A stretch of 64,000 nucleotides of DNA from Arthrobacter sp. HY1533 (GTDB lineage Bacteria > Actinomycetota > Actinomycetes > Actinomycetales > Micrococcaceae). The notes beneath the pieces were generated by a model that did not search any database, was not told the DNA's origin, and saw only the letters and a program-made list of their open reading frames with translations. Shown here piece after piece: positions 2,461 through 26,698 of this stretch (the stretch's first letter is position 1; every line of letters starts with the position of its first letter). The stretch is from assembly GCF_027568515.1 (NCBI RefSeq), contig NZ_JANKZF010000007.1, forward strand, positions 1-64,000, read 5' to 3'. Both the position numbers and the translations under genes were made by a program.

Positions 2461-2542
2461 GCCGAGATTCGTGTATGGTCAAGAACACACTAGGAGCGAA
2501 GGAGCCTTTCTTTCGTTCACTCACGGAACGAAAGGAAGCACC

Positions 2543-3912: not shown

Positions 3913-3932
3913 TTCTGGAAGGCACGTATTTG

Positions 3933-6632: not shown

Positions 6633-6667
6633 GATTGTCTCTTCCCCTGTTCGCCGCGCTGCACGGC

Positions 6668-9287: not shown

Positions 9288-9379
9288 GGGGATTCTCCTT
9301 GGAATTACACAATGGTGGTGTAGCTGGGGGTCAAAAAGGGTGCACGTGTGGCAGGAAAGGGTGCTTTGGGGGCCTGTTT

Positions 9380-11197: not shown

Positions 11198-11222
11198 GGC
11201 TTTCCTTCCGATGGCGCCCGGA

Positions 11223-12072: not shown

Positions 12073-13062
12073 ATGAAGCTGTCCAAGAACATCGCAGCGC
12101 TTGCCTGCGCGGCGGTGCTTGCCCTGACCCTTTCCTCGTGCAGCGGGGGCGCCGGCGCCGCAGGTGAAAGCGGCGGAAGCGGAGCCGGGGCGGGCAAGAA
12201 GATTGGCCTGATCATGCTGCAGGGCGACACCTACTTCCAGGGCATCCAGACCGGCCTGGAGGAAGCCGTCAAGGCCGACGGCGGCTCCGTCACCACGGGC
12301 CTGTCCAACAACGACCCCGCCACGGAAAACCAGGTGGCGCTGAACATGATCCAGGCCAAGATGGACGCCGTGCTGATCCAGCCCACAGCCGATGAGGCAT
12401 CGCTGGCCACCATGAAGGCCATCAAGGACGCCGGCATCACGCTCATTTGCTACGGCAACTGCGTGGGCGCCACGGCCGACCCCGCCAACGTTGACGGCGT
12501 GATCCAGTCCGACAACACCGCCCTGGGCACCGGAACGGGCGAGGCCGCCGCGAAGTACCTGAAGGAGAAGGTGGGCGACACCGTCAAGCTCGCCATCCTG
12601 AACTGCGACGTGGCCTCCGCCTGCAAGCTGCGCAAGACAGGCTTCCTGGACGCACTCAAGGCCGCCGGCATCAAGGTGGACGTGGTCACCGACCAGGAGG
12701 CCTACCTGACCGACAAGGCCACCCCCGTGGCCGAGAACATCCTCACCGCCAACCCCGACGTTGACGTGTTCTGGGCCTCGAACGACGGCGGCACCGCCGG
12801 CGCCGTGATCGGCACCAAGGGCTCCAAGAAGCCCGTCTTCGGCACCGACATCTCCACGCAGATCGCCGGCTTCATCCTCGAGGCCGACGGCAACCTGCAG
12901 GCCACCACGGGCCAGGACCCGGTGGGCACCGCCAAGGGAGCCTACGAAATGGCCAAGAAGGTCATGGCCGGCGAAAAGCTGGACAAGCACAGCGTTGAAC
13001 TGCCCGGCATTGTGTACGACCGCGCCAACCCGGAAACCACCAACAAGTTCCTGGGCAAGTAG
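12073..13062 (+). CDS. Ribose-type (CUT2) sugar ABC transporter substrate-binding lipoprotein
   Basis: A 329-aa periplasmic-binding-protein-like (RbsB/peripla_BP_4) protein. The signal peptide ends in the lipobox LSSC at about residue 22, so the protein is membrane-anchored. The mature part begins KIGLIMLQGDTYFQG, typical of the sugar-binding fold, and contains DVFWASNDGGTAGAV. AAAGGAG (12058-12064) is 8 bases before ATG 12073; an ATG six bases earlier is too close to it. The ATPase and permease follow on the same strand. The ligand is probably a sugar, sugar alcohol or sugar acid related to the enzymes downstream. Confidence 0.9.
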   Translation: MKLSKNIAALACAAVLALTLSSCSGGAGAAGESGGSGAGAGKKIGLIMLQGDTYFQGIQTGLEEAVKADGGSVTTGLSNNDPATENQVALNMIQAKMDAVLIQPTADEASLATMKAIKDAGITLICYGNCVGATADPANVDGVIQSDNTALGTGTGEAAAKYLKEKVGDTVKLAILNCDVASACKLRKTGFLDALKAAGIKVDVVTDQEAYLTDKATPVAENILTANPDVDVFWASNDGGTAGAVIGTKGSKKPVFGTDISTQIAGFILEADGNLQATTGQDPVGTAKGAYEMAKKVMAGEKLDKHSVELPGIVYDRANPETTNKFLGK

Positions 13063-13076
13063 CCACTTGAACCCGT

Positions 13077-13112
13077 GGTGCATGGCGGGCCCGCACGGGC
13101 CCGCCATGCACC
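13077..13112 (+). terminator. Perfect 16-bp stem-loop after the RbsB-like gene
   Basis: GGTGCATGGCGGGCCC (13077-13092) pairs perfectly with GGGCCCGCCATGCACC (13097-13112) around a GCAC loop. No T-run follows. As with the hairpin at 3866, it lies between an SBP gene and the rest of its transporter, so it may stabilise the SBP mRNA or cause partial termination. Confidence 0.7.
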
Positions 13113-13134
13113 GGAACCAAGGATGTGACGGGCA

Positions 13135-14634
13135 ATGAACCATGTAATTCTCAAGTGCCGGGGGCTGACCAAGCGTTTCGGCACTGTCACGGCACTGAAC
13201 GCCGTGGACTTTGAACTGCACCGCGGCGAGGTCCGCGCCCTGCTGGGCAAGAACGGTGCCGGCAAGTCCACCATCGTGAACCTCATCTCCGGATCGCTCA
13301 CGCCGGATGAAGGAACCATTGAACTGGACGGCCAGAAGGTCAGCTGGTCCGGCCCCCGGGCAGCGCAAGCCGGCGGGATCGCCGTCGTGCACCAGGAATT
13401 CTCCCTGGTGCCCGGGCTCAGCGTGGCAGAGAACATCACCCTTGGCCGCTGGCCCAAAAAGGGCGGCTTCGTGGACCAGTCCGAACTGAAGGCCATGGCG
13501 CGCAAGGCGCTGGCCCGGCTCGACGTGCCCATCCCGCTCACCGCCGAGGTGGGCCTGCTGCCGCTGGCAGACCAGCAGCTCGTGGAAATTGCCAAGGCGC
13601 TCGTGGACGAACCCCAGGTTCTCATCCTGGACGAGCCCACCAGCGCGCTCAACACCCACGAGGTCAACGCCCTGCTGGCGCTGATCCGCCGCCTGGCCGC
13701 AACCGGGATGTCCATCATTTACGTCTCGCACCGCATGAAGGAGATCCCGCTCGTGGCCGACAGCCTCACGGTGCTGCGCGATGGGCAGGAGATTGGTACG
13801 CACGACGTGGCCAACATCAGCTCCGACCAGGTGGCCGAGCTCATCAGCGGCGAGGACAAGAGCGCCAGCGACGTCACCAAGCGCGACCGCACTGCAGCCC
13901 CCGCGGTCCTGGAGGTCCGGGACATCAAGGTGCCGCACCGGCTGGGTGGCGTCTCCTTCTCCCTCCACGAGGGCGAGGTGCTGGGCATCGCCGGCCTGCT
14001 GGGCTCGGGACGCACGGAAATGCTCGAGACCATCTTCGGCCTGCGCGACGACGCCACGGGCGAGGTCCTCATCAAGGGGCAGGCCCAGCGCCGGCGCAGC
14101 CCGCGCAAGATGCTCAACCTGGGCGTCGCCTACACCTCCGAGGACCGCAAGGGCTCGGGCATCGTGCCGCTGCTGGGGATTGCGGAGAACCTGCTGCTCT
14201 CGGCCCGCGGCCGCGTGCTGCCCAAGTTCTGGCTGCGCTCGCGGGAGGAAGCCAAGATTGTGGACACCGTCATGAACTCCATGTCCGTCCGCGCCTCCTC
14301 GCCGCAGCAGGAGATCGGCACACTGTCCGGCGGAAACCAGCAAAAGGGCGTGATCGGACGGGCGCTCGCCGCCGGCATGCAGGTACTGCTGCTGGATGAA
14401 CCCACCCGGGGCGTTGATCTCCACGCGAAGGCCCAGATTTACGGGCTCATCCGCGAGCTCGCCGACTCCGGGGTGTCCTCGATCTTCGTCTCATCCGAAC
14501 TTGAAGAAATCGCAGAAGTCTGCGACCGCGTGCTCATCCTCCGCGACGGGCTCGTCCACGAAGAACTTATTGGTTCGCAGGGAACCGCCGAACGCATTCT
14601 GGCACTGGCCATGCGACAGGAGAACAACAAATGA
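13135..14634 (+). CDS. Sugar ABC transporter ATP-binding protein (RbsA/MglA-like, two NBDs)
   Basis: A 499-aa protein with two fused nucleotide-binding domains, as usual for CUT2 importers. The first domain has Walker A GKNGAGKST (about 40-48) and Walker B LILDEPTSAL. The second has a degenerate Walker A region GLLGSGRTE, signature SGGNQQKG and LLLDEPTRGVD. It energises the permease that follows by ATPase activity on the cytoplasmic face. Start ATG 13135 follows AAGG. The stop overlaps the permease start as ATGA. Confidence 0.93.
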   Translation: MNHVILKCRGLTKRFGTVTALNAVDFELHRGEVRALLGKNGAGKSTIVNLISGSLTPDEGTIELDGQKVSWSGPRAAQAGGIAVVHQEFSLVPGLSVAENITLGRWPKKGGFVDQSELKAMARKALARLDVPIPLTAEVGLLPLADQQLVEIAKALVDEPQVLILDEPTSALNTHEVNALLALIRRLAATGMSIIYVSHRMKEIPLVADSLTVLRDGQEIGTHDVANISSDQVAELISGEDKSASDVTKRDRTAAPAVLEVRDIKVPHRLGGVSFSLHEGEVLGIAGLLGSGRTEMLETIFGLRDDATGEVLIKGQAQRRRSPRKMLNLGVAYTSEDRKGSGIVPLLGIAENLLLSARGRVLPKFWLRSREEAKIVDTVMNSMSVRASSPQQEIGTLSGGNQQKGVIGRALAAGMQVLLLDEPTRGVDLHAKAQIYGLIRELADSGVSSIFVSSELEEIAEVCDRVLILRDGLVHEELIGSQGTAERILALAMRQENNK

Positions 14635-15641
14635 CCAACGCACTGAAAGACAGAAGCCTCGCCGCATCGCCGCGGGCCAGCTTCACCGAAACCCTGGGGC
14701 GGATCAAGAACTGGCAGAGCCTGGGCCTGCTCATTGTCCTGGTCCTGTTCTATGTGGCCCTCTCCCTGGCCTCGCCGCTGTTCCTGACGGTGGGCAACCA
14801 GCTGGCCATCCTGCAGAACGCCGCCTTCTTCGGCATCGTGGCCTTCGCCATGACCCTGGTGATTGTCTCGGGCGAGATCGACATTTCCGTGGGCTCCATG
14901 GCCGCGCTCTCCTCCTCCATGCTGGGCGTCCTGGTGGTCAAGCAGGGGGTGCCGTTCTTCGTAGCCGTCATCCTGGTCATGGTGGTCGCCGTGGCCTTCG
15001 GCGGACTCACAGGCGTGCTGCGCTCCTACTTCGGCGTGCCCACCTTCATCTCCACCCTGGCCCTGTTCCTGGCACTTCGCGGCCTGGCCCAGCTGCTGAC
15101 CAACAACTTCCCCATGCCGATCCCCAGTGAGGCGTTCTTCTACTGGGGCACCGGCAAGCTGTTCGGCACCATCCCCGTGGCCGCGGTCTACTTTGTCATC
15201 GCCGCGATCATCATTGGCGTCGTGGCCCAGAAGACCGTATTTGGCCGCTCCGTCTACGCCGTCGGCGGCAACGCCAAGGCCTCCACACTCTCCGGCATCC
15301 CCGTGCGCCGCGTCAAGATCGTTGTCATGATGATCTCCGCGCTCGCCGCCTCCGTGGCGGGCCTGCTGCAAAGCGCCCAACTTTCCTCCGGCAACAGCAC
15401 CATCGCCATGGGCCTTGAGTTCGACGCCATCGCCGCCAGCATCATCGGCGGCACAGTCCTCTCCGGCGGCAAGGGCACCATTGTTGGCACGCTCATCGGC
15501 GTGGTCTTCATTGCCGCCCTGCTCAACGGCATGGTCCTGCTCGGCGTGAACCCCTACGCGCAGCAGGTGGTCCGCGGCGCCGTGGTCCTCATCGCAGTCC
15601 TCGTCAACGTGTGGCGCACGCGCCGCGCACCCATCAGCTAA
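14631..15641 (+). CDS. Sugar ABC transporter permease (RbsC-like)
   Basis: A 336-aa inner-membrane permease of the BPD_transp_2 family with about ten hydrophobic segments. Family motifs are VIVSGEIDISVGSMAALSS (near residue 80), YAVGGNAKASTLSGIPV (near 205) and GGTVLSGGKGTIVGTLIG (near 278). It is translationally coupled to the ATPase gene by an ATGA overlap at 14631. It probably works as a homodimer or with the single copy present here. Confidence 0.92.
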   Translation: MTNALKDRSLAASPRASFTETLGRIKNWQSLGLLIVLVLFYVALSLASPLFLTVGNQLAILQNAAFFGIVAFAMTLVIVSGEIDISVGSMAALSSSMLGVLVVKQGVPFFVAVILVMVVAVAFGGLTGVLRSYFGVPTFISTLALFLALRGLAQLLTNNFPMPIPSEAFFYWGTGKLFGTIPVAAVYFVIAAIIIGVVAQKTVFGRSVYAVGGNAKASTLSGIPVRRVKIVVMMISALAASVAGLLQSAQLSSGNSTIAMGLEFDAIAASIIGGTVLSGGKGTIVGTLIGVVFIAALLNGMVLLGVNPYAQQVVRGAVVLIAVLVNVWRTRRAPIS

Positions 15642-15686
15642 ACCGTCCGCATTCCCATGGAAACAACAGCCACGAAAGGCCATCCC

Positions 15687-16349
15687 ATGACCTCCCGTAC
15701 CGATCCCGAACTCTTCGAGCTCATCAACACCAGGCTCAACACCTCCGTCATCGGCGACATCCTCGATGCCATGGGCCGCACCATCCAGTTCCTGCCGCCG
15801 GAGATCCGCCCCATGCGCCCGGGCATGCGCCTGGCCGGACGCGCCATGCCTTCCGTGGTCTCGGATGTGCACGGCCCCCAGAAGAAGCCCTTCGGCTACC
15901 TGACCGAGGCCCTGGACCAACTGCAGCCGGGCGAGGTCTACATTTCCCCGCGCATCGTCCAGCCCGTGGCAACGTGGGGCGAAATCCTCACCGCCACCTC
16001 CCAGCAGCGCGGTGCCGTCGGTGCCGTGGTTGACGGCTACTACCGAGACACCAAGCAGGTGCTCGACCGTAACTTCCCCGTGTTCGGTTGGGGTTGCTAC
16101 GGCCAGGACTCCTCGGTCCGCACAGTGGTGCGGGACTACCGGGTTCCCGTGCGGATTGGCGGGGTCCTGGTGACCCCGGGCGATCTCCTCATCGGCGACA
16201 TTGACGGTGTCCTGGTCCTGCCCAGGGAAGTTGAGGCCGAAGTCATCGAGGCGGCAGTTGCCAAGCTCTCCACGGAGAATGTGGTGTGCAAGGCAATTGA
16301 TGCGGGCATGAGCGCCACGGAGGCGTTTGCCCGCTTCGGCGTGCTGTAA
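15687..16349 (+). CDS. RraA-family protein, probable aldolase-like enzyme of sugar-acid catabolism
   Basis: A 220-aa protein of the RraA / HMG-aldolase-like superfamily (RNase regulator A fold). Members include 4-hydroxy-4-methyl-2-oxoglutarate aldolases and lyases acting on keto acids, besides the RNase E inhibitor. The conserved segment GAVVDGYYRDTKQVLDRNFPVF is split here as GAVVDGYYRDT and NFPVFGWG; the usual active-site Arg-Asp (RDT) is present. GDLLIGDIDGVLVLPRE is typical of the family. ATG 15687 follows GAAAGG; an ATG ten codons earlier lacks a ribosome site. In this operon an enzyme role, not RNase control, is the better reading. Confidence 0.82.
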   Translation: MTSRTDPELFELINTRLNTSVIGDILDAMGRTIQFLPPEIRPMRPGMRLAGRAMPSVVSDVHGPQKKPFGYLTEALDQLQPGEVYISPRIVQPVATWGEILTATSQQRGAVGAVVDGYYRDTKQVLDRNFPVFGWGCYGQDSSVRTVVRDYRVPVRIGGVLVTPGDLLIGDIDGVLVLPREVEAEVIEAAVAKLSTENVVCKAIDAGMSATEAFARFGVL

Positions 16350-16395: not shown

Positions 16396-17202
16396 ATGAG
16401 CCGCAAGCATGAAGGCCGCGTAGTAATTGTGACCGGGGGATCGGCCGGGATTGGCAGGGGCGCCGTTGAGGCGTTTGCCGAGGACGGCGCCTCCGTGGTG
16501 GTCCACGGGCTCACCGCGGACGACGTCGAAACCACAGTGGGCGCGATCCTCGCCTCGGGCGGCAAGGCAGTGGGCGTGCACGGCGACGTTGCCCTGGAGG
16601 AGACCCACCGCCGCATGGTGGAGGTGGCACTGGCCGAGTTCGGCCGGATCGACCACCTGGTCACCTCCGCCGGCATACAGACCTACGGCGACGCCGAAAC
16701 CACCACGCCGGCGGACCTGGACCGGGTCTACTCGGTCAACGTCAAGGGCGTCTTCATGGCCGTCCACGCCGCCATTTCCGAGATCCGCAAGAACCGCGGG
16801 ACCGTGACACTGGTGTCCTCCGTGCAGGGCGTGGCCACACAGAACAACGTGGTGGGCTACACCATGACCAAGGGCGCGCTGAATGCAATGGCCCGCGCCA
16901 TGGCCGTTGACGAGGCCGCCCATGGGGTCCGCGTCAACGCCCTGCTGCCCGGCTCCGTGGACACCCCCATGCTGCGCACCTCCGCGCGGGCATGGTCGGA
17001 CGGAACCGATGCGGGGGAGGATGCGCTCATCGCCCAATGGGGCACCATGCACCCGCTGGGCCGGGTGGGGCAGCCGCGGGAGATCGGCAACGTCTGCTCC
17101 TTCCTGGCGTCGGAGGCGGCCAGCTTCGTCACCGGCTCGGAAATCCGCGTGGACGGCGGCCTGCTGGCCCGCATCGCCGCGGCCCTGCCCGCCAAGGACT
17201 GA
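16396..17202 (+). CDS. SDR-family oxidoreductase (glucose/fructuronate-type dehydrogenase)
   Basis: A 268-aa classical SDR. The cofactor motif TGGSAGIGRG is at residues 12-21, SAGIQ near 93, the catalytic Ser in LVSS and YTMTK as YxxxK. The C-terminus carries the usual GSEIRVDGG strand. ATG 16396 lies after AGAAGG; upstream codons belong to the preceding gene. Its place between an RraA-like protein and a mannonate-dehydratase-like protein suggests reduction or oxidation of a sugar acid such as a uronate, or of a semialdehyde released by an aldolase (inference). Confidence 0.87.
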   Translation: MSRKHEGRVVIVTGGSAGIGRGAVEAFAEDGASVVVHGLTADDVETTVGAILASGGKAVGVHGDVALEETHRRMVEVALAEFGRIDHLVTSAGIQTYGDAETTTPADLDRVYSVNVKGVFMAVHAAISEIRKNRGTVTLVSSVQGVATQNNVVGYTMTKGALNAMARAMAVDEAAHGVRVNALLPGSVDTPMLRTSARAWSDGTDAGEDALIAQWGTMHPLGRVGQPREIGNVCSFLASEAASFVTGSEIRVDGGLLARIAAALPAKD

Positions 17203-17273: not shown

Positions 17274-18323
17274 ATGATCCAACTCAGTGAATTCCTTCCG
17301 CCGCGGCCCGAGAACTCGTGGAAGCTCATCCGCCAGGCTGGCGTCAGCAACGTGGTGGGCGTCCTCAATGGCGCCGAGCAGGACCAGCGCATGTTCGCCT
17401 CGGTGGGCAGCGCCGGTTGGAAGGCCGACGACCGCAACGAGGTGCCGTGGAGCGTTGCCGCGATCAAGCGCAACATTGAGATCTACGAGCAGTGGGGCTT
17501 CAAGCTCATCGCCACCGAGGACACCGCGCCGATGGACAAGGTGCGCCTGGGCCTGGACGGGCGCGACGAGCAGATCGAGAACTTCATCGAGCAGATCCGC
17601 TCGCTGGGCCAGCTGGGCATCCCCACCATGGCCTACAACTGGATGGCGCTGAGCAGCTGGGGCCGCACCGACAACGCCATCGTGGACCGCGGCGGCGCCC
17701 TGGTCACGGGCTACAACCGGGCCGTGGCGCAGGGCGGCGAGCAGTTGGCCGAGGCCGGCCTCCACACCCCCGAACAAATGTGGAGCGCGCTGGACTACTT
17801 CCTGCAGGCCGTTGTCCCCGAGGCTGAAAAGGCCGGCGTCCGCCTGGCGATGCACCCGGATGACCCGCCGCAGCTCATGGACCGTGGCGTGCCGCGCATC
17901 ATGAGCTCGGTGGGGAACTTCCGCCGCTTCCTGGAGCTGTACCCCTCCGACTACAACGGCACCACGTTCTGCCAGGGCAACTTTGCCCTCATGAACGAGG
18001 TCATCAGCGGCGAGACCTCCATCCCGGCACTGATCCGCGAATTCGGCACGGCAAAGATCCCGTTCGTGCACTTCCGCGACGTGCGCGGCACCGTTGAGCA
18101 GTTCCAGGAAACATTCCACGACGACGGCCAGACGGACATGGCCGAGTGCATGCGCGCCTACGCCGAAATCGGCTTCGAAGGTGCCATGCGCCCTGACCAC
18201 GTTCCCACCATGGAGGGCGAAAGCAACGGCCGCCCGGGCTACGAAACCCTGGGCCGGCTCTTCGCGATCGGTTACATCCGGGGCCTGGAGCATTCCGCCT
18301 ACGGCCACCCGTCCACGCGCTAA
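17274..18323 (+). CDS. Mannonate dehydratase (UxuA)-like protein
   Basis: A 349-aa TIM-barrel protein of the UxuA / xylose-isomerase-like superfamily. UxuA enzymes dehydrate D-mannonate to 2-keto-3-deoxygluconate using a metal. Recognisable parts are MHPDDPP (near residue 187), TTFCQGNFALM (near 225), VHFRDVRGT (near 265) and MRPDHVPTMEGE (near 305), carrying the Cys, His and Asp ligands expected. It is shorter than E. coli UxuA (about 394 aa), as for many actinobacterial homologues. The kinase gene starts on the last base of its stop codon (TAATG). Confidence 0.82.
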   Translation: MIQLSEFLPPRPENSWKLIRQAGVSNVVGVLNGAEQDQRMFASVGSAGWKADDRNEVPWSVAAIKRNIEIYEQWGFKLIATEDTAPMDKVRLGLDGRDEQIENFIEQIRSLGQLGIPTMAYNWMALSSWGRTDNAIVDRGGALVTGYNRAVAQGGEQLAEAGLHTPEQMWSALDYFLQAVVPEAEKAGVRLAMHPDDPPQLMDRGVPRIMSSVGNFRRFLELYPSDYNGTTFCQGNFALMNEVISGETSIPALIREFGTAKIPFVHFRDVRGTVEQFQETFHDDGQTDMAECMRAYAEIGFEGAMRPDHVPTMEGESNGRPGYETLGRLFAIGYIRGLEHSAYGHPSTR

Positions 18324-19351
18324 TGCCTGCACCCAACACTGTGCTTGACGCTGAGCTGGCCGAGGCCAGGACCATTCTGGAACGAATGGGCCTGGCCCGG
18401 CCGGGCGAGGCGCTGGACATTGAGCCGCTGACCGGCGGGGTGTCCAGCGACATCTGGCGGATCCGCAAGGCCGTCGGCACCTTTGTGCTGAAGAAGGCCC
18501 GCGAGCAACTGAAGGTCGACGCCGAATGGCACGCACCCATTGACCGCGGCGCGGCCGAGGCAGCCTGGCTGGCCTTTGTGGCCGACGTTGCTCCCGGCCA
18601 CGCGCCTGCCGTTCTGGCGGTGGACGAGCCGAGCTTCGCCATGGCGTTGGAGTACCTTGACGCTGACACCTTCGCGAACTGGAAGAACCAGCTCCTGGCC
18701 GGACACGTCGATCCGCGCGCAGCCGCAGCCGTGGGCCGGACGCTGGGGCGCATCCACGCCGCCAGCACCCGCACGGCCGGCCTCGCGGAGCAGTTCGCGA
18801 ACCAGGAACTGTTCGAGTCGCTGCGCATTGAGCCGTACCTGCGGCGCACGGCCCAGGCCGTCCCCGAGGTGCGGGAGGAGCTTGGGCGCATCATTGAGGG
18901 GCTGGAATCCACCCAACTGGCGCTGGTGCACGGCGACCTCAGTCCGAAGAACATCCTGGTGGGGGAGGGCGACGGTGTTCCTCACCCCGTGATTCTCGAC
19001 GCTGAATGCGCCACCTGGGGTGATCCGGCCTTTGACGCGGCGTTCTGCCTCACCCACCTGGCCATCAAGGAACTCCACCTGCCGGCCCACGCTGCGGATC
19101 TGCGCACGGCGGCCCTCGCCTTCGAGGCGGCGTACCTCGCCGAAGTCACCTGGGAAGAGGTGGAATCCACCGGCTCACGCATCGGCCGGATCCTTCCCGC
19201 ACTGGTGCTGGCCCGGATGGCTGGGGCCTCGCCCGTTGAATACCTCGAGCCTGAAGAACGCGCGGCACTTGCGGCATTGGCCATCGCCGCCCTCCGTTCC
19301 GGGGACAGCCTCTGGGACACCATGGACAACACGACAGGAAACAAGCAATGA
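18323..19351 (+). CDS. APH-fold phosphotransferase (small-molecule kinase)
   Basis: A 342-aa kinase of the aminoglycoside phosphotransferase / choline kinase-like fold. VLKKA near residue 56 supplies the ATP-binding Lys; the catalytic loop is HGDLSPKN at 203-210 with base Asp205; DAE at 226-228 is the metal-binding position. It overlaps the upstream gene by one base and the enolase paralogue downstream by ATGA, so all three are made together. The setting argues for phosphorylation of a sugar, sugar acid or glycerate rather than antibiotic resistance. Methylthioribose-kinase-like activity is another possibility. Confidence 0.85.
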   Translation: MPAPNTVLDAELAEARTILERMGLARPGEALDIEPLTGGVSSDIWRIRKAVGTFVLKKAREQLKVDAEWHAPIDRGAAEAAWLAFVADVAPGHAPAVLAVDEPSFAMALEYLDADTFANWKNQLLAGHVDPRAAAAVGRTLGRIHAASTRTAGLAEQFANQELFESLRIEPYLRRTAQAVPEVREELGRIIEGLESTQLALVHGDLSPKNILVGEGDGVPHPVILDAECATWGDPAFDAAFCLTHLAIKELHLPAHAADLRTAALAFEAAYLAEVTWEEVESTGSRIGRILPALVLARMAGASPVEYLEPEERAALAALAIAALRSGDSLWDTMDNTTGNKQ

Positions 19352-20613
19352 GCAGCAACATCACGGCCGTGCGCGGCCGCGAAGTGTGGGACTCCCGGGG
19401 CCTGCCCACGGTTGAGGTCGAGATTGAAACGAAAAACGGCACCTTCGGCCGCGGCATCGCACCGGCCGGGGCCTCAACGGGCAGCCGGGAGGCCGTTGAA
19501 CTGCGCGACGGCGGAACCCGGCTGGGCGGCAGGGGAGTCTCCCGCGCCGTCGAACTCGTCAACACGCTCGTGGCACCGGCCCTGTTGGGGCACGACACCG
19601 CCGACCAGGCCGGTATCGACGCGATCCTGGACGGCCTGGACGCGGACCCGGCCCGCAGCAACATTGGCGGCAACACGGTGACGGCGGCCTCGCTCGCGGC
19701 CCTCCATGCCGCGGCGGCCGTGCGCGGCATCCCCAGCTGGCAGGTGCTCAACGAGGCGCCGACGCAGATCCCGCGGCCGCAGATCCAGATCATGGGCGGC
19801 GGCGCGCACGCCGCGCACCGCACGGCCGTGCAGGACTTCATGGTCTATCCGCTCAGTGCCACCAGGATTGCCGATGCGCTGGCCCAGGTGGCCGAGGTGT
19901 ACCTCTCGGTGGGTGAGATCATGGCCGCCCGCGGGCCCCGGCACGGCGTGGCCGACGAGGGCGGGCACTGGCCAGATGTGTCCGGGACCGAGGACGCCCT
20001 GGACGTGCTGGTGGCCGGCATCGAGCGGGCGGGGCTGCGGCCCGGGGTGGACATGGGCATCTCGCTGGACATTGCCGCAAGCCAGTTCCAGTCCAACGGC
20101 CTGTACCGGGTGGGCGGGGTTGACCACGGCACGGCCGAATGGATCGAAAAGCTGCTGGCCATCTGCCGCGCCTACCCTGTCATCACCATGGAGGACCCGG
20201 CCGACGAGGACGACTCCCACGGCATGCGCCTGGCAGTGGCGGGGGCCGCCACGGTGATTGTGGGCGATGACTACCTGGTGACCAATGCCCAGCGGGTGCG
20301 CGATGCCGCGGCCGCCCGTGAGGTGGATTCGGTGCTGGTCAAGGTCAACCAAGTGGGCACCGTGACGGGCGGGGCGGCGGCCGTGGTGGCCGCCCGCGAG
20401 AACGGGCTGAGCGTCATAGTCTCGGCCCGCTCCGGCGAAACGGAGGACACCTCCGTGGCGCACCTGGCCACCGGCTGGGGTGCGGACATTGTGAAGGTTG
20501 GCTCCATCACCCGCAGCGAGCGGACAGCCAAGTGGAACGAGTTGATCCGCATTGACGAGGCATTGGGTGGGCTGCCGCTGGCACCTGTGGTGACGCGGCG
20601 GGCGCAGCCCTAG
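19348..20613 (+). CDS. Enolase-family paralogue with altered active site
   Basis: A 421-aa protein clearly related to enolase over its full length. Metal ligands Asp241, Glu282 and Asp307, the acid/base Glu204 (ADEGG), base Lys332 (LVKVNQ), His154, Arg361, Ser362 and Lys383 are kept. Two catalytic-site residues differ: the invariant His of the SHRSGE motif is Ala360 (SARSGE), and the Glu of QEFM is Asp163. These face the C3 side of 2-phosphoglycerate, so a bulkier phospho-aldonate may be the substrate (inference). It is coupled to the kinase gene by ATGA and sits in a sugar-acid operon, unlike housekeeping eno. Its true reaction is unknown. Confidence 0.85.
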   Translation: MSSNITAVRGREVWDSRGLPTVEVEIETKNGTFGRGIAPAGASTGSREAVELRDGGTRLGGRGVSRAVELVNTLVAPALLGHDTADQAGIDAILDGLDADPARSNIGGNTVTAASLAALHAAAAVRGIPSWQVLNEAPTQIPRPQIQIMGGGAHAAHRTAVQDFMVYPLSATRIADALAQVAEVYLSVGEIMAARGPRHGVADEGGHWPDVSGTEDALDVLVAGIERAGLRPGVDMGISLDIAASQFQSNGLYRVGGVDHGTAEWIEKLLAICRAYPVITMEDPADEDDSHGMRLAVAGAATVIVGDDYLVTNAQRVRDAAAAREVDSVLVKVNQVGTVTGGAAAVVAARENGLSVIVSARSGETEDTSVAHLATGWGADIVKVGSITRSERTAKWNELIRIDEALGGLPLAPVVTRRAQP

Positions 20614-20622: not shown

Positions 20623-21639
20623 TCAGGTCCAGAGCACCGGAACGGGAAGGCGCTCACGCTTTTCGCTGCTGACGCCCAGGATTCCCTGGCGGCCCTGCTC
20701 GTGGGCAGCGGCCTGGGCCGCACCGATCTGGGCCACCAGCCTGTCCATCGCCATGCTGCCCAGCAGCTCGCCGTCCACGTTGATCGACGGCGCCCGGCTC
20801 ATGCCCAGGGAGGCGATCAGCACCTCGTCGGCACTCACCACGATGTCCTCGGGCACCCGGACGCCGCGGGCCTGCAGGCCGTGCATCAGGCCCAGGGAGA
20901 TGGCCGAGGAGTAGGAGATGACGGCGGTCGCCCCCGAGCGGACAACGGCGTCGACCACGCCGAAGCCGGCCGCAAAGGTTGGATCGAAGGTCCCGAACTC
21001 GCTCAGCTCGGCACGGTCGGCCAGGGCGCCGCGCACGGCACGCGTGCGCTGCTCGTTTTGCCACGAGTTGTCCGGCCCGCCGATGAAGGCGATGTTCCTG
21101 TGTCCCTGCGCGGCAAAGCTCTCGGCCAGGGCCCGGAAGGCGCCCTCGGTGTCGGCGACCACGGAAGGGACGGTGTCAATCTCCCTGTCGATGAGAACGC
21201 TGGGCTTCAGGGAGCAGATGTCCAGGATGGTTGCGTCATTGCCCTTGGGGGCCGCGATCAGGAACCCGTCAACCTGCCTCGAGAGCAGCCGCAGTGCCTC
21301 CGCGTCGGCCTCGGTGGCGACGCCGTTGACCACAATGGTCAGGTGCAGTTCGGATTCGTTCGCCCGGATTTGGGCACCCCGCACGATGGGGGTGAAAAAG
21401 CTGTTTTCCAGCGTGGGAACCACCATGGCCACCAGCCCGGAACGGCCCGAGGCCAGTGCCGTCGCTGCCCGGTTGGGGAAGAAGGCGAGCGTTTCGGCAG
21501 CCGAACGGACACGGTCGGCTGTTGACCTGGCCACGAGTTCCGGCTTGCCCAGGGCGCGCGACGCCGTGGACTTTGAGACGCCGGCCAATTTCGCGACATC
21601 TTCCAAGGTTGCCAATGCTTTCCCCAATCCGTTCCGCAT
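20623..21639 (-). CDS. LacI-family transcriptional regulator
   Basis: A 338-aa regulator: N-terminal LacI helix-turn-helix LEDVAKLAGVSKSTASRALG, hinge, then a periplasmic-binding-protein-like sensor domain (LVAMVVPTLENSFF, SEFGTFDPTFAAGFGVVDAV). It is convergent with the enolase paralogue (10-bp gap) and divergent from a Pot-type ABC operon, with a triple direct repeat in the shared promoter region. The start is uncertain: ATG 21639 was chosen, ATG 21687 is possible, and TTG 21615 would give the family-typical MATLEDV N-terminus after GGGGAAAG. Confidence 0.88.
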   Translation of the reverse strand: MRNGLGKALATLEDVAKLAGVSKSTASRALGKPELVARSTADRVRSAAETLAFFPNRAATALASGRSGLVAMVVPTLENSFFTPIVRGAQIRANESELHLTIVVNGVATEADAEALRLLSRQVDGFLIAAPKGNDATILDICSLKPSVLIDREIDTVPSVVADTEGAFRALAESFAAQGHRNIAFIGGPDNSWQNEQRTRAVRGALADRAELSEFGTFDPTFAAGFGVVDAVVRSGATAVISYSSAISLGLMHGLQARGVRVPEDIVVSADEVLIASLGMSRAPSINVDGELLGSMAMDRLVAQIGAAQAAAHEQGRQGILGVSSEKRERLPVPVLWT

Positions 21640-21705
21640 GCCCGCTGTACGGTCACATGCTGTTCCGCCTTTGCGATTCTGACACAACCTACTCTATGCT
21701 TCTTG

Positions 21706-21741
21706 CAACCGGTACCACAACCGGTTCCACAACCGATTGCA
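21706..21741. promoter_or_regulatory. Three tandem 12-bp repeats, probable LacI-family operators
   Basis: CAACCGGTACCA (21706-21717), CAACCGGTTCCA (21718-21729) and CAACCGATTGCA (21730-21741) are adjacent 12-mers with a CAACCGRT core; the middle copy contains the palindrome AACCGGTT. TTGCAA flanks both ends (21704-21709, 21737-21742). They lie 20-60 bases before the permease start in the divergent gap next to a LacI gene. Confidence 0.65.
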
Positions 21742-21763
21742 ATCATCCATCAACGAGGATCTC

Positions 21764-22594
21764 ATGTCAGCCATGTCGCGAAAACCCTTGTTCCTGCTGT
21801 TGCCAGGACTGATCTTCATCCTGTTGGGGTTCGCGATTCCCTCCGGAATCATGCTCTTCGCCCCGCCGGGGGTGGGCACGGGTGAGATCTTTGTCCGCCT
21901 CGGCGAGATGCTCACCGACCCCTTCGAACAGGCCATCATTCTGCGCACCTTGGGCCTGGGCTTGATCGTCATGGCCATTTGCCTCATCCTCGGCTTTCCG
22001 ATCGCCTACCTCCTGGCGCGGTCCACCTCGCGGTACGCCGGCGTGTGGCTTGCCCTGGCCATCTTTCCGCTGCTGCTGAGCAACGTGGTGCGCACCTTCG
22101 GCTGGATCGTGATCCTGGGCAGCAAGGGTGCCCTGGGGCAGCTCATCGTCTTCCTCGGGTTCGCCGACGAAGCACCCCAGCTGCTGTACACCGAACTTGC
22201 CATTGTGCTTGGCCTGACCCAGCTGTTCCTGCCGCTGGCCATCATTTCCTGCTACTCCGCCGTGGCCCAGGTTGACGCCGGCCTCGACGACGCCGCCCGC
22301 GGCCTCGGCGCCAGCAAGACCCGGACATTGTGGACCGTGGTGATTCCGCTCTCCGCCCCCGGCCTGGTGGTGTCAGCCACGCTCGTGTTCGCCGGCTCCG
22401 CCACCGCCTACACAACCCCGTACCTGCTTGGCGGCTCCGCCAACCGGATGCTCTCCACCGAGCTGTTCTCCTACTCGGCCGTCACGGTCGACTGGGCCTC
22501 CGCATCGGCCACCGCCTTGATCATGACGATCCTCGTGTTCCTCGTTTCCGGCGTTTCCTCCCTGGCCACTCGCAGAAAGGGGATGGTTTCGTGA
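21764..22594 (+). CDS. Spermidine/putrescine-type ABC transporter permease (PotB-like)
   Basis: A 276-aa inner-membrane permease with six predicted helices. The EAA-type loop is seen as LDDAARGLGASKTRTLWTVV (near residue 181), matching the PotB/PotC class. ATG 21764 follows GAGG; a second ATG at 21773 is less well spaced. It is first in an operon of two permeases, ATPase, binding protein and an adenosine-deaminase-family enzyme. The PotC-like gene starts inside its stop codon. Substrate is unknown; Pot-type systems import polyamines and many other small organic molecules. Confidence 0.9.
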   Translation: MSAMSRKPLFLLLPGLIFILLGFAIPSGIMLFAPPGVGTGEIFVRLGEMLTDPFEQAIILRTLGLGLIVMAICLILGFPIAYLLARSTSRYAGVWLALAIFPLLLSNVVRTFGWIVILGSKGALGQLIVFLGFADEAPQLLYTELAIVLGLTQLFLPLAIISCYSAVAQVDAGLDDAARGLGASKTRTLWTVVIPLSAPGLVVSATLVFAGSATAYTTPYLLGGSANRMLSTELFSYSAVTVDWASASATALIMTILVFLVSGVSSLATRRKGMVS

Positions 22595-23385
22595 AAGGCC
22601 GCCCACTGATCGGCACCTTAGCGGTGCTGGGCTACATCATCATGATCGTGCCCATCCTCTTCGTTGTGGCAATCTCGTTCACCGACAGCCAGACGCTGAG
22701 CTTCCCGCCCAAGGGCTTCACCCTGCGCTGGTTCGGCGAGGCAGCCTCCTACGCGCCGTTCACCTCGGCGCTGCTGAACAGCCTGGGCCTGGCCATTGTC
22801 TCCACGGCGTTGGCACTGGCAATCGGCATCCCCGTCACGCTCGCCATCCAGCGCGGCAAGATCCCCGGCAAGTCACTTGTCGAGGGACTGTTCCTCTCAC
22901 CCCTGGTGGTCCCGGAGCTGGTGGTTGGCCTGGCCCTGTACCAGCAGATCATGGTGGGGCTGCAGCAAACCTCGCTCGTGGCGCTCGTCATTGGCCACAC
23001 CATCATCCTCATGCCCTACGCGGTCAGGGTGACCGGGGCGTCCCTTGCCCTGGCCGACCCCTTCGTGGAGGAGGCCGCACGCGGCCTTGGCGCATCCCCG
23101 TTCAAGACCTTCATGACCGTGACACTGCCTCTGCTGCGTCCGGGCATCTTCTCGGCGGCACTGCTGAGCTTCATCACCTCGTTCAACAACGTGCCCATGT
23201 CGCTGCTTCTGCAGAGCCGGAAGTTCCACACGCTCCCCATCAGCATGCTCGATTACATCCAACAGTCCTATGACCCGATGATCGCTGCCATGTCGACACT
23301 TCTTCTCGCCGGAACCATTGTGATCGCCATTGTGGCTGAACGCACGGTCGGCTTCGCCAAGATCTTTGGAGGCATCAACAAATGA
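22591..23385 (+). CDS. Spermidine/putrescine-type ABC transporter permease (PotC-like)
   Basis: A 264-aa second permease. Six hydrophobic segments and the EAA loop VEEAARGLGASPFKTFMTVT (near residue 158) are visible. The start is GTG 22591, overlapping the PotB-like stop as GTGA and preceded by AAAGGGG; the longer open frame upstream overlaps the first permease and is not used. Its stop overlaps the ATPase start by ATGA. Confidence 0.9.
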   Translation: MKGRPLIGTLAVLGYIIMIVPILFVVAISFTDSQTLSFPPKGFTLRWFGEAASYAPFTSALLNSLGLAIVSTALALAIGIPVTLAIQRGKIPGKSLVEGLFLSPLVVPELVVGLALYQQIMVGLQQTSLVALVIGHTIILMPYAVRVTGASLALADPFVEEAARGLGASPFKTFMTVTLPLLRPGIFSAALLSFITSFNNVPMSLLLQSRKFHTLPISMLDYIQQSYDPMIAAMSTLLLAGTIVIAIVAERTVGFAKIFGGINK

Positions 23386-24404
23386 CCATTGCAGCGGAAT
23401 TCATCGGCGTCAGCCAGTCATTCGGCGACTTCCTCGCCGTCGACAACCTCGATTTGAAGATCGAGGAAGGCAAGCTGACAACCCTCCTGGGCCCCAGCGG
23501 CTGCGGCAAGACCACCACCTTGCGCATGCTGGCCGGCTACGGAACCCCCACCAAGGGCCGCATCACGATCGGCGGCAAGGACGCAACCACGCTGCCGCCG
23601 GAAAAGCGCAACCTGGGCATGGTGTTCCAGTCCTACGCCCTGTTCCCGCACATGACAGTGGCCGAAAACGTGGCGTACGGCCTGAAGATCCGCAAGGTGG
23701 CCCAGCCGGAGCGCACCAAGCGCGTCATGGAAAGCCTCGAGCTGGTGGGCCTGGCACACCTTGCCGGGCGCCGCCCCAAGGCACTCTCGGGCGGGCAACA
23801 GCAGCGCGTTGCACTGGCCCGCGCCATCGCCATCCGCCCCGCCCTCCTGCTGCTCGACGAGCCGCTCTCCAACCTCGATGCACGCCTGCGCGTTCAGATG
23901 CGCAGCGAGATCCGCCGCATCCAGGCCGAGACCAGCCTCTCGGTGGTGCTCGTGACGCACGACCAGGATGAGGCACTGGAAATGTCAGACACCATGGTGC
24001 TGATGCGCGAGGGCAAAATCATGCAGCAGGGCGCCCCCGAGCAGGTGTTCCCGGCCCCGGCCAACCGATTTGTGGCCGAGTTCCTCGGCTACGAGAACTT
24101 CATCGTCGACCCCACGCGCGGCCTGCTCACGGTCCGGCCCGAGCACCTGCGCGTGGCCTCCGGCGAGACCGAGCCTGCGCTCGCGTCCGCCGGGCTGGCG
24201 CTGCCCGCCACCGTCACCAGCTCTGCCTACCGCGGCGTCGACCTGGTCATCACCACGGCGGTTGTCAATGCCGCCGGTGAAGAAGTTCCGCTCGTTTCCA
24301 CGGTGCGCCGCGACTCCCTGGCCGCCGGCTTCGCGGGCCACAACCGCGGTGACAAGGTCACCGTCTACACGCGCGAGGTAGACCTCGTCTCGCTGCCCGG
24401 CTGA
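23382..24404 (+). CDS. ABC transporter ATP-binding protein (PotA-like)
   Basis: A 340-aa ATPase with Walker A GPSGCGKTT (about residues 37-45), Q-loop VFQSYALFPHMTV, signature LSGGQQQR, Walker B LLLLDEPLSNLD and switch VTHDQDEA, followed by a C-terminal TOBE domain (LTVRPEHLRVASG onward). The TOBE domain is shorter than in E. coli PotA (378 aa). It couples to the two permeases encoded just upstream. Confidence 0.93.
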   Translation: MTIAAEFIGVSQSFGDFLAVDNLDLKIEEGKLTTLLGPSGCGKTTTLRMLAGYGTPTKGRITIGGKDATTLPPEKRNLGMVFQSYALFPHMTVAENVAYGLKIRKVAQPERTKRVMESLELVGLAHLAGRRPKALSGGQQQRVALARAIAIRPALLLLDEPLSNLDARLRVQMRSEIRRIQAETSLSVVLVTHDQDEALEMSDTMVLMREGKIMQQGAPEQVFPAPANRFVAEFLGYENFIVDPTRGLLTVRPEHLRVASGETEPALASAGLALPATVTSSAYRGVDLVITTAVVNAAGEEVPLVSTVRRDSLAAGFAGHNRGDKVTVYTREVDLVSLPG

Positions 24405-24479
24405 CACACGGCCCCGCCGCTGCGCACACCCTGCAACACCCCCCCCGGCACGACCCACCTGCAAGTTAGGAAAAGCACA

Positions 24480-25568
24480 ATGTTCAAATCTCGACTCACC
24501 CGCACGGGTGCGATCCTTGCGGCCTCCGCCATCGTCGCAACCGTCGCCGGCTGCTCGGCAACCGCCCCCGACGCCGGCGCAGGCGCCGACGATGCGGCCG
24601 GCACCACGATCGTCGTGAGCACCTTCCCCTTCGGCGTTGAAGAGATGAAGAAGGCCATCGTCGAGCCGTTCGAGAAGTCCACCGGAATCAAGGTTGAGAT
24701 CGACACGGGCAGCAACAGCGAGCGTCTGTCCAAGCTGGAACTCAATGGCAAGAACTCGGACATTGACGTCATGCTGATCTCCGACTTCTACGCCGCACTG
24801 GGCCAGGAAAAGGGTGTGTTCCAGCAGCTGGACGCCAATGCCGTCCCGAACCTCGCCACGATCCCCGACTTCGCCAAGGACCCGCAGTTCATGGGCCCGG
24901 CCTACAGCTTCCAGCTCAACGGAACCTTGTTCAACACCGAAAAGCTCACCGCCGCCAAGGCTGCCGACTGGGCACTCTACGGCGACAAGGCCAATGCCGG
25001 CCGCACGGCCCTGCCGGACATTTCCGTGACCGCCGGACAGCTCACCGTCTCGGCTGTTGGCGAGAGCTACGGCTCCGGGCCCTACGATGTTGACGCAGCC
25101 TTCAAGACCATGGCCGGCTGGGCCCCCAACACGCTGCAGTTCTACAAGTCCTCCACCGAGGTGACGAACCTGCTGCTGCAGGGAGAGATCGTGGCAGCAC
25201 CGACCCTCAGCGGCTTCGCCACCAGTCTGGTCGCCGCCGGTGAGCCGATCGCCTGGACCGCACCCAGCAAGGGCCGCTACATGGCCACCAACCGGGCCAT
25301 GGTTCCCGCCGGCGCACCCAACCTGCCCGGCGCGCAGAAGTTCATCGACTACCTGCTCTCGGTTGAGGCCCAGACCGCTTCCGCTGACGTGGTGGGTGAC
25401 CTTCCGGTGAACCCGGGCGCAACCGTTCCCAAGCAGCTCACCGACATCGTGGGTCCGGCAGCAAAGGATCCCGTGGCGGCCGGCTACAAGACGCTGGACA
25501 TGAAGACCATCGTTGCGAACCGCGATGACTGGACCAAGCGCTTTGCCCGCGAGGTCACGGCCCGCTAG
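24480..25568 (+). CDS. ABC transporter substrate-binding lipoprotein (PotD/SBP family)
   Basis: A 362-aa extracellular binding protein. Residues 1-24 form a lipoprotein signal with lipobox VAGC. The mature part begins TTIVVSTFPFGVEEMKKAI, the first beta-alpha unit of a type 2 periplasmic binding protein, and carries a typical C-terminal SADVVGDLPVNPG segment. Unlike the other two importers in this window, the SBP gene comes after the membrane parts and directly precedes an enzyme gene (11-bp gap), so transport and deamination of the same compound are likely linked. Confidence 0.9.
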   Translation: MFKSRLTRTGAILAASAIVATVAGCSATAPDAGAGADDAAGTTIVVSTFPFGVEEMKKAIVEPFEKSTGIKVEIDTGSNSERLSKLELNGKNSDIDVMLISDFYAALGQEKGVFQQLDANAVPNLATIPDFAKDPQFMGPAYSFQLNGTLFNTEKLTAAKAADWALYGDKANAGRTALPDISVTAGQLTVSAVGESYGSGPYDVDAAFKTMAGWAPNTLQFYKSSTEVTNLLLQGEIVAAPTLSGFATSLVAAGEPIAWTAPSKGRYMATNRAMVPAGAPNLPGAQKFIDYLLSVEAQTASADVVGDLPVNPGATVPKQLTDIVGPAAKDPVAAGYKTLDMKTIVANRDDWTKRFAREVTAR

Positions 25569-25579
25569 GGCTGCCTGCC

Positions 25580-26698
25580 ATGACGATAAACACCAATAGT
25601 CAGTTGAATTCTTACCTGGCACGCATCCCGAAGACAGATCTCCACTGCCACCTCATCGGCACGGTCCGGGCATCGACATTTGCCGAACTTGCCGTGCGGG
25701 AAAACCTGCCGCTGCCGGATGACGCCAAGCGCATCTTTGCCGACATCAACTCCCTGCCGCCGGACCCGGCGCTCTACCTGAACACCCGGGTCCCCGTCCC
25801 TCAGGGCCGCAGTGCGGACGAGCCCGAGGTGTCGTACTCGCTGTTCCAGGCCTCCAAATGGGTTGTCGAGTGCCTGCGCAGTGCCGATGACCTCACCCGC
25901 ATCACCTATGAGGCCTTCGAAAGCGCACATTTGACCAGCTCCACGCGCCACCTCGAGCTGTTCTTCGATGCGGTTTCCCCGCAGACAGCCCACCTAGGCT
26001 ACCGGGGCGTGACCGAGGCATATGCCGACGGAATTCGCATGGCCGAGCGGGACTTCGGAATGACCGGCCGGATGATTGCGGGCATCGACCGCAGCCAGAG
26101 CGGTGAGCATGCACTCTCCCTGGTGCGCCAGATGGTGGACAACCCCAACGACTACGTTGTGGGAATCGGCCTGGACAACCTGGAAACTGCGGGCCCGCCC
26201 GAGCGTTTCGAGGCGGCCTACAAGCTGGCCGGTGCGGCCGGGTTGAAGCGGACGGCGCATTCCTCCGAACACGCGCCCGTCGCCGTCAACACGACCACTT
26301 GCCTGGACGTGCTGGGCTGCGACCGGATCGACCACGGCTACTTTGTGCTTGAAGACGACGCCGTGGTGGAACGGTGCCGCGAGGAGCAGGTGGCATTCAC
26401 GGGTGTCTTCACCACGTCCCGGCGCTCGTGGCGGCCGTGGCGCCGTGACTCGATCAAGGCCATGCTCGATGCTGGCCTGAACGTCATCCTCGCCTCCGAC
26501 GATCCCGGGATGTTCCCGACGACGCTCGCCAACGAGTACCAGATCGCTTCGGACCAGCTCGGCCTTGGCCGGGAGAAGCTGCGTGCCATGTCAATGGCCG
26601 GCATTGAAGCCTCATGGGTTTCCGAGGAAGAGAAGGCCGCGATGCGGGCCCGTTTCACGGCCGAATTCGACGCCCTTGAGCGGGAGTTCTTCGCATAA
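25580..26698 (+). CDS. Adenosine deaminase-superfamily hydrolase
   Basis: A 372-aa TIM-barrel amidohydrolase. Zinc ligands HCH (DLHCHLIGTV), the acid Glu and His in KRTAHSSEHAP (canonical HAGE changed to HSSE), RIDHGYF and ASDDPGMF (canonical TDDP changed to SDDP) are all present, so it should be catalytic. ADA-family members deaminate adenosine, adenine, aminodeoxyfutalosine or cytokinin-like adenines. The LIGTV in place of the usual DGSL after HCH suggests a substrate other than adenosine. It is the last gene of the Pot-type ABC operon and is followed by a strong hairpin. Confidence 0.85.
   Translation: MTINTNSQLNSYLARIPKTDLHCHLIGTVRASTFAELAVRENLPLPDDAKRIFADINSLPPDPALYLNTRVPVPQGRSADEPEVSYSLFQASKWVVECLRSADDLTRITYEAFESAHLTSSTRHLELFFDAVSPQTAHLGYRGVTEAYADGIRMAERDFGMTGRMIAGIDRSQSGEHALSLVRQMVDNPNDYVVGIGLDNLETAGPPERFEAAYKLAGAAGLKRTAHSSEHAPVAVNTTTCLDVLGCDRIDHGYFVLEDDAVVERCREEQVAFTGVFTTSRRSWRPWRRDSIKAMLDAGLNVILASDDPGMFPTTLANEYQIASDQLGLGREKLRAMSMAGIEASWVSEEEKAAMRARFTAEFDALEREFFA

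Follow-up and report, generated by a model that had tools for sequence, protein, structure and literature searches.

An enolase paralogue with a changed active site is coupled to an APH-fold kinase: a candidate module for phosphorylative dehydration of glycerate-type acids

Results

An APH-fold kinase gene overlaps the gene of an enolase paralogue

The window analysed here is a 64,000-nucleotide stretch of Arthrobacter sp. HY1533 DNA (contig NZ_JANKZF010000007.1, positions 1 to 64,000 of the forward strand). A plus-strand run of genes for an ABC transporter, an RraA-like protein, an SDR oxidoreductase and a UxuA homologue ends in the gene pair that is our subject, an APH-fold small-molecule kinase followed by an enolase paralogue (coordinates in Table 1). 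A sequence-only reading of this DNA had described the pair as overlapping by ATGA within a sugar-acid operon. Inspection bears this out: both open reading frames (ORFs) are intact, the kinase stop and the paralogue start share the ATGA, the UxuA stop and the kinase start overlap by one base as TAATG, and genes for lactonase-family, DUF4432, FAH and SDR proteins lie on the opposite strand.

The window kinase matches only the APH, EcKL and fructosamine-kinase models of Pfam, and none of PF02595, MOFRL and the P-loop kinases, the families to which glycerate kinases of classes I-III belong. It reaches no NCBIfam equivalog cut-off (the best model, MTRK, scores 41.9 of 275 bits) and has no close relative among solved structures (best E 0.0043). 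The motifs HGD-x-SPKN and L-D-x-E are invariant in 30 aligned family members, as are H203, D205, N210 and D226 of the window protein, which make up the HxDxxxxN motif and the metal-binding Asp.

The paralogue has both enolase domains (Enolase_N, 2.1e-41; Enolase_C, 1.3e-64). We rejected an MR-type (MR/MLE) sugar-acid dehydratase identity, the MR_MLE_C score being below its cut-off (24.6 versus 29.4 bits), as against 218.8 bits for Enolase_C. It is not the housekeeping enolase either: the genome encodes another enolase, an ordinary one with 42% identity to the window paralogue. A pseudogene or sequencing error was likewise rejected, given the intact ORFs, the overlapping starts and substitutions that are fixed in more than 80 relatives.

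Two active-site substitutions are fixed in the paralogue family

Ordinary enolase removes water from 2-phosphoglycerate; Glu168 and His373 (yeast numbering) flank the leaving hydroxyl, His373 lying near the hydroxyl on C3. In the account of the reaction given in PMC4450660, Lys345 abstracts the C2 proton, the carboxylate and the phosphate are bound by two Mg ions, and Glu211 is the general acid that aids loss of the C3 hydroxyl; in the solved Chloroflexus enolase described there Glu165, which we take as the equivalent of Glu168, contacts 2-phosphoglycerate. Aligned to solved enolases, the window paralogue has QDFM for QEFM and SARSGE for SHRSGE, just as the sequence-only reading had it, so that Asp163 replaces Glu168 and Ala360 replaces His373. 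The same reading had the metal ligands and the base as retained, and the alignment agrees: the Mg ligands Asp241, Glu282 and Asp307 are kept, together with Lys332 (the base, Lys345), Glu204 (the acid, Glu211), Lys383 (Lys396), His154 (His159) and Ser43.

That reading had also called for the active sites of kinase-adjacent enolases to be compared, and the substitutions proved to be general. Of 90 aligned paralogue rows, that of the window among them, all those readable at the Glu168 position have Asp (88/88); at the His373 position 85/86 have Ala, and the remaining one, a very divergent Enterobacter protein, has Gly. The other catalytic positions are kept with a single exception, a Lys for Glu211. 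The ordinary enolases compared, 23 of them from pair-bearing genomes and 30 from Actinomycetota genomes, among these the window genome, have Glu at the first position and His at the second without exception (53/53 each). Asp and Ala are also found in 3/3 further members, one of them from Bacteroidota. Chance does not explain substitutions that a large family has fixed and that none of the 53 ordinary enolases shows. Further positions separate the two groups (window numbering: N150 to G/S, L188 to A, G202 to A, A208 to W/S, I336 to A/N and T384 to V/I).

In a quick, unrooted tree, 37 paralogues and 18 ordinary enolases fall on either side of one branch (SH-aLRT 99.9); the divergent Enterobacter protein (locus L018) was excluded from the trees and from the paralogue counts at the group-separating positions. 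Alignment and tree together place the enolase paralogues on a branch of their own, apart from ordinary enolases and marked by a fixed change in the pocket. The window paralogue sits on a long branch and differs at nine positions common to more than 93% of the other paralogue rows, which suggests that it may be specialised further.

Kinase and paralogue form a conserved pair

A tblastn search of plasmid records with the kinase gave 32 relatives, in Rhizobium, Rhodococcus, Azospirillum, Burkholderiaceae, Roseibium, Paracoccus, Sphingobium, haloarchaea, Persicobacter, Enterobacter and others; we examined 20 of the 32 regions, those of Roseibium and Paracoccus with wider flanks. A first scan of genome contigs with a single kinase query gave no matches; scanning a species-genome collection with a kinase alignment returned at least 566 relatives, of which the best 80, ranked by likeness to one Paraburkholderia kinase, were used. 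Gene calls in unannotated loci are GC3-based and noisy, neighbours were named by tblastn with proteins taken from a small number of annotated loci, and the gene tables of the plasmids have gaps.

Although the query was the kinase only, an enolase homologue is also encoded in 73/80 of these stretches, and for three of the other seven a paralogue-like match (judged by score) lies elsewhere in the genome, giving 76/80. Conversely, the top 18 plasmid records for the paralogue (at least 48.6% identity) all carry the kinase. When 31 Actinomycetota genomes were queried with an ordinary enolase, three second enolases were found, the window's and two others (2/30 other genomes; L175 and L176, in G661 and G675), both of which carry Asp and Ala and directly adjoin a kinase of the family (35-43% identity) in the gene run kinase-paralogue-SDR. 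The two genes lie at most 150 bases apart on one strand in 64/89 loci, with the kinase first in 52 (L088 was dropped from this count by the coverage filter). Their distances are correlated (Mantel r 0.62 over 84 loci, with 0/999 permutations as high; 0.59 over 51 non-redundant loci), the very divergent Enterobacter pair being included in the test. Kinase and paralogue are thus a conserved gene pair across the family at large, and the kinase-coupled enolase branch is present in four bacterial phyla and in haloarchaea.

Close to the window genome the picture is different. With the kinase at E 1e-20, the window genome was the only one to match both in its family (1/295 sampled genomes) and in its genus (1/23). 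A paralogue search at E 1e-105 likewise found only the window in its order and phylum (1/396 each), a cut that was too strict, since the ordinary-enolase query shows the paralogue beside the kinase in two other Actinomycetota genomes. The expectation that the pair would be conserved in relatives therefore holds for the family at large and fails for the genus and family of Arthrobacter sp. HY1533. We conclude from the kinase searches that the pair is seldom found among close relatives of the window genome and that it was probably acquired laterally.

Several loci depart from the common form. In a Pyrinomonadaceae metagenome-assembled genome (MAG; L052) the kinase is present, no paralogue was found in the genome and the only enolase scores as ordinary, a possible kinase-only case. 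An Enterobacter chuandaensis plasmid (L018:8310-20933) and L174 carry a very divergent kinase/enolase-like pair with 31-32% identity to the window's, in which CEKGG stands for DEGG and AGRS for SARS. The pair is followed by genes for a U32 peptidase, an aminotransferase, two iron-containing redox enzymes, an M14 peptidase, a nucleotidyltransferase and an MFS transporter, a run that resembles small-molecule biosynthesis; at L174 the kinase is shortened and overlapped by an IS1 gene. In Streptomyces himalayensis (G1050) a third enolase match (L177:2980-4023), 72% like the Paraburkholderia paralogue, lies downstream of a LacI gene and ends before the SARSGE stretch, apparently a shortened extra copy.

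Genomes with the pair also encode ordinary enolase and glycerate kinases

An ordinary enolase is encoded in 23/23 genomes searched whole and a second copy in 22/23, the exception being the L052 genome described above. Conventional glycerate kinases were found in 15/15 genomes tested, class I in nine and class II in the other six, so that, by family assignment, all 15 can already phosphorylate D-glycerate. For this reason plain D-glycerate looks unlikely as the substrate of the pair.

A D-2-hydroxyacid dehydrogenase is the commonest third gene

The commonest third gene encodes a D-2-hydroxyacid dehydrogenase of the phosphoglycerate-dehydrogenase/glyoxylate-reductase type, within 1.5 kb in 45/97 loci; ketopantoate-reductase-like (PanE-like) proteins take the same role in three more, and one or other reductase is present in 40/76 loci with enough flank. 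We found 44 dehydrogenase genes within 2 kb of the pair and three further out (9.9 versus 0.29 per 100 kb, 34-fold) and FAH hydrolases about 5-fold denser within 2 kb than further out, rates that are inflated by near relatives. Among the genes tested, the dehydrogenase is the only strongly tied third gene. It would presumably yield a 2R-hydroxy acid, and we take the PanE-like protein to belong to an R-specific family as well.

Phosphoenolpyruvate (PEP) carboxylase is encoded within 4 kb of the kinase in 8/97 loci, seven from Rhizobium and one from Pararhizobium. The Rhizobium loci have the D-2-hydroxyacid dehydrogenase, the kinase and PEP carboxylase in one run, and in the PEP carboxylase loci the paralogue is encoded on the other strand, at a distance of about 4 to 8 kb. 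The one carboxylase checked, from R. indicum, passes its equivalog cut-off and keeps its motifs relative to the solved structure 1fiy. Other settings recur as well: sugar-transport operons with SDRs and FAH proteins in Roseibium and Paracoccus; a run of FAH, dehydrogenase, kinase and paralogue in Rhodococcus opacus; a run of kinase, paralogue, SDR and FAH in Embleya (L173); and haloarchaeal sugar-acid regions in which an IlvC homologue is encoded within 1.5 kb.

At L005, L008, L009, L017, L023, L034 and L086 (Rhizobium, Burkholderiales, Streptomyces, Rhodococcus, Arthrobacter and Sphingobium) we observed a ring-cleavage-like set whose membership varies by locus: an HpaD-like extradiol dioxygenase, an ADH nearest to scyllo-inosose 3-dehydrogenase but below its cut-off, a CMD protein, a cupin, an FMN reductase, FAH proteins and LacI. 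The set possibly represents an undescribed cyclitol or polyhydroxy-aromatic pathway. Two haloarchaeal plasmids have TCP-1/cpn60-type chaperonin genes near the pair (L015:7237-8931 and L016:6426-9773).

The window combines the pair with homologues of a sugar-acid route

Table 1. The kinase-paralogue pair and its neighbours in the window.
Feature	Position	Strand	Evidence and remarks
APH-fold small-molecule kinase	18323-19351	+	342 aa, intact ORF; Pfam APH (PF01636) 8.8e-23
Enolase paralogue with Asp163 (Glu168, yeast numbering) and Ala360 (His373)	19348-20613	+	421 aa, intact ORF
ATGA overlap, kinase stop/paralogue start	19348-19351	+	Sequence
UxuA, mannonate-dehydratase family	17274-18323	+	Pfam UxuA 8.1e-76; NF003027 200.1 of 191 bits
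SDR oxidoreductase	16396-17202	+	Family match; start chosen at 16396, ORF list start 16327
RraA-like aldolase/lyase family protein	15657-16349	+	Pfam 1.1e-27
Sugar-type ABC transporter	12075-15641	+	ORF translations read by eye
ABC transporter, binding protein	~12075-13062	+	By eye
ABC transporter, ATPase	13135-14634	+	By eye
ABC transporter, permease	14631-15641	+	By eye
FCD-GntR regulator, divergent	11223-11969	-	Family match
SMP-30/gluconolactonase family protein	10334-11200	-	Start approximate; SGL 1.2e-67 on ORF 10334-11680, matched residues 176-415
DUF4432 protein	9380-10330	-	Family match
FAH-family hydrolase	8445-9575	-	Real start probably later, since the ORF overlaps its neighbour
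SDR oxidoreductase adjoining FAH gene	7676-8428	-	Family match
LacI-family regulator, convergent with paralogue	20623-21687	-	Family match

The order UxuA-kinase-paralogue occurs only in the window among the loci examined. Route 3 of nonphosphorylating L-fucose/L-rhamnose breakdown, as outlined in PMC11199699, uses an aldonate dehydratase, an SDR 4-dehydrogenase and an FAH-type diketo hydrolase and ends in pyruvate and lactate. Homologues of its lactonase, dehydratase, SDR and FAH enzymes are all present in the window, in two divergent gene groups. The best NCBIfam model for the FAH protein is 2,4-didehydro-3-deoxy-L-rhamnonate hydrolase at 221.9 bits, below the cut-off of 500, and its second-best solved relative is an L-2,4-diketo-3-deoxyrhamnonate hydrolase (8gsr).

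Elsewhere in the window, the LacI gene beyond the pair begins a region (20623-26698) with spermidine/putrescine-type ABC transporter-like genes (by eye) and an adenosine-deaminase-family protein (PF00962, 6.1e-53). Near the left end, two genes at 433-3844 (647 and 458 aa) have no Pfam match at E 0.001; they precede two ABC-permease-like genes (3888-5779), near two FCD-GntR regulators (5850-7426, minus strand).

Discussion

On balance, the pair is probably a two-step, ATP-paid dehydration module for a 2,3-dihydroxy acid of the glycerate type, giving PEP or a PEP homologue. In the first step the kinase, the obvious candidate source of the 2-phosphate, would phosphorylate the 2-hydroxyl of a small 2,3-dihydroxy acid, supplied either by the adjacent D-2-hydroxyacid dehydrogenase acting on a 3-hydroxy-2-oxo acid or by sugar-acid breakdown, for which FAH or aldolase routes are possible sources. 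In the second, to judge from the residues kept, the paralogue would use ordinary enolase chemistry, with two Mg ions, Lys332 taking the C2 proton and Glu204 aiding departure of the 3-hydroxyl, to yield an enol phosphate, either PEP or PEP with a substituent on C3. Since the catalytic residues are kept except for Glu168 and His373, the chemistry is most likely still the loss of water from a 2-phospho-3-hydroxy acid, with a changed fit at C3. The Glu to Asp and His to Ala replacements on the side of the leaving hydroxyl, together with the covarying positions, would fit the site to a substrate that ordinary enolase takes poorly, and D-2-phosphoglycerate is then probably not the main substrate. 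What would be new is the active site and the kinase partner; the known enolase fold and chemistry appear to be kept.

Against plain D-glycerate stand the changed active site and the ordinary enzymes that the genomes already encode; PEP carboxylase, the hydroxypyruvate-reductase-like gene and the neighbours of a hexonate route favour a C3 acid and PEP. A hexonate degraded through route 3 would end in pyruvate and glycerate, which would explain why UxuA, SDR, FAH, kinase and paralogue stand together in the window. The exact substrate of the window copy may differ from that of the family, given its long branch and a gene order seen in no other locus examined. We therefore put forward a type of reaction rather than a particular acid, a larger aldonate being the first rival.

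Several observations weigh against a dedicated module of this kind. The window paralogue passes the phosphopyruvate hydratase model TIGR01060 (393 bits versus a cut-off of 300). Four of the 80 kinase loci are without a paralogue found (two on short contigs, one in a MAG without an enolase match and one an apparent true absence); by score rather than residues, three of the genomes concerned have only an ordinary-scoring enolase and one MAG has none. The loci are not independent, many being from Rhizobium and many from MAGs. Of the 76 loci with enough flank, 36 lack the reductase, the window among them, and some pairs adjoin unrelated genes. In the density test, SDR, MR-type, TRAP and ALDH queries were not enriched near the pair (ratios 0 to 0.7), and PEP carboxylase gives 0 hits within 2 kb against nine further out, because the midpoint of the gene lies beyond 2 kb. 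Local duplicates of central genes do occur, and PEP carboxylase may be one of them. Finally, D-2-hydroxyacid dehydrogenases would make D-glycerate from hydroxypyruvate, which weakens the case against D-glycerate as the substrate.

The first rival, which we consider somewhat unlikely, is a phosphorylative aldonate dehydratase: a tetronate, pentonate or hexonate would be phosphorylated at C2 by the kinase and then dehydrated by the paralogue to the enol phosphate of a 2-keto-3-deoxy acid. This comes close to the sequence-only reading, in which the kinase acted on an aldonate or glycerate and the paralogue dehydrated a larger 2-phospho-acid. The conserved pairing, the separate branch and the fixed pocket change uphold part of that interpretation; the larger aldonate fares less well, with UxuA in the operon and PEP carboxylase at eight loci pointing to C3. 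Replacing His by Ala and Glu by Asp should free space at C3, and in the operons of Roseibium and Paracoccus the pair is joined by a sugar ABC transporter, SDRs and an FAH hydrolase; the gene table, which is incomplete, lists no further dehydratase in either operon, nor any within about 20 kb in Paracoccus. The IlvC family is known to make C3-substituted 2,3-dihydroxy acids, which lends weight to its haloarchaeal homologue, and the SDR directly after two Actinomycetota pairs would also suit an aldonate. However, dehydratase-family genes are found nearby in the window (UxuA), at L050 and in Embleya (MR-type) and at both haloarchaeal loci (several MR-type), a Roseibium MR-type gene lies about 12.5 kb from the pair, and a long aldonate is not expected in the ring-cleavage-like clusters with their HpaD-like dioxygenase.

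That the pair is a dedicated, co-regulated copy of the ordinary path from D-glycerate to PEP, with an altered enolase that is still a 2-phosphoglycerate enolase, is to us an improbable alternative. It draws on the TIGR01060 score and on the Rhizobium loci, where the dehydrogenase, kinase and PEP carboxylase genes form one run, the paralogue gene stands a few kb off and the set matches the hydroxypyruvate-to-oxaloacetate part of the serine cycle. But both changed residues are invariant in all 53 ordinary enolases, changes at His373 and Glu168 of yeast enolase are said to cost much activity, and the genomes already have ordinary enolase and glycerate kinase genes.

We hold a route from L-glycerate to be less probable again. 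Here the kinase would make 2-phospho-L-glycerate and a paralogue of altered stereochemistry would turn it into PEP, allowing L-glycerate to be used directly. Such a route would account for a dedicated enolase that still yields PEP and for the redundancy with conventional glycerate kinases, and, extrapolating from what PMC11199699 reports of route 3, FAH-type routes would release glycerate of the sugar's own series. The R-specificity that we assume for both reductase families runs against it, and an inverted C2 would need a base on the opposite face, yet Lys332 is kept. A reaction in which a 3-substituted rather than 3-hydroxy lactate is phosphorylated at C2 and the paralogue expels a group other than water to give PEP is very improbable: the changed residues are on the leaving-group side, and reductase, kinase and PEP carboxylase would suit a 3-X-pyruvate entering as 3-X-lactate, but the general acid Glu204 is kept and the neighbour maps and clusters show no recurrent neighbour handling a released group such as sulfite, the genes that bear on a sulfolactate-type version (TauE-type near L092, sulfatase-like in Roseibium and, about 14 kb from the Paracoccus pair, one for a putative sulfate exporter) forming no pattern.

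Enolase is commonly treated as among the most invariant single-function enzymes. If the pair is a two-step module for a glycerate-type acid, enolase may not be single-function: we tentatively propose, with less confidence than for the module itself, that a deep kinase-coupled branch carries out phosphorylative dehydration of 2,3-dihydroxy acids other than D-glycerate to PEP or its homologues. This bears on whether the enolase family proper can change its substrate, as the wider superfamily did. It would also provide a glycerate-type kinase outside the known classes, a new way to PEP or its homologues and, beside the Fe-S and MR-type acid dehydratases, an alternative that is paid for in ATP. 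The annotated plasmid records that we examined mostly name the paralogues phosphopyruvate hydratase; since the branch is widespread, has both active-site changes fixed and comes with a kinase, this label is probably wrong for many genes. The sequence-only reading knew of no described pathway of this type, and our literature search, with most subscription journals outside its coverage, found no description of a kinase-coupled enolase.

Among known systems, route 3 shares with our loci the FAH and SDR genes, which stand near the pair at several loci and also across from the window operon; a kinase-enolase pair is not mentioned in the parts of PMC11199699 that deal with the known route. Glycerate kinases, as classified in PMC2063504, comprise three unrelated classes, none of them APH-type, and the class II enzyme of T. 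tenax makes 2-phosphoglycerate. The reaction proposed here is of a like type, the phosphorylation of a glycerate-type acid, but the family differs, and an APH-type kinase, if confirmed in this role, would be a fourth class. With other APH small-molecule kinases, such as methylthioribose kinase, the window kinase shares its domain and catalytic motifs, without reaching an NCBIfam cut-off or having a close solved relative. The serine cycle contains the segment hydroxypyruvate reductase, glycerate 2-kinase, enolase and PEP carboxylase. The Rhizobium loci group homologous roles, but with a kinase of another family, a rebuilt enolase site and, in two stretches, no one-carbon (C1) genes listed. Enolase itself (EC 4.2.1.11, TIGR01060) is the closest comparison: the paralogue shares its fold, both domains, the metal ligands, the Lys base, the Glu general acid, the phosphate-binding Arg-Ser and the loop His; it differs by Asp for Glu168, Ala for His373 and shifts at 150, 188, 202, 208, 336 and 384 among others, and stands on a separate branch, coupled to a kinase.

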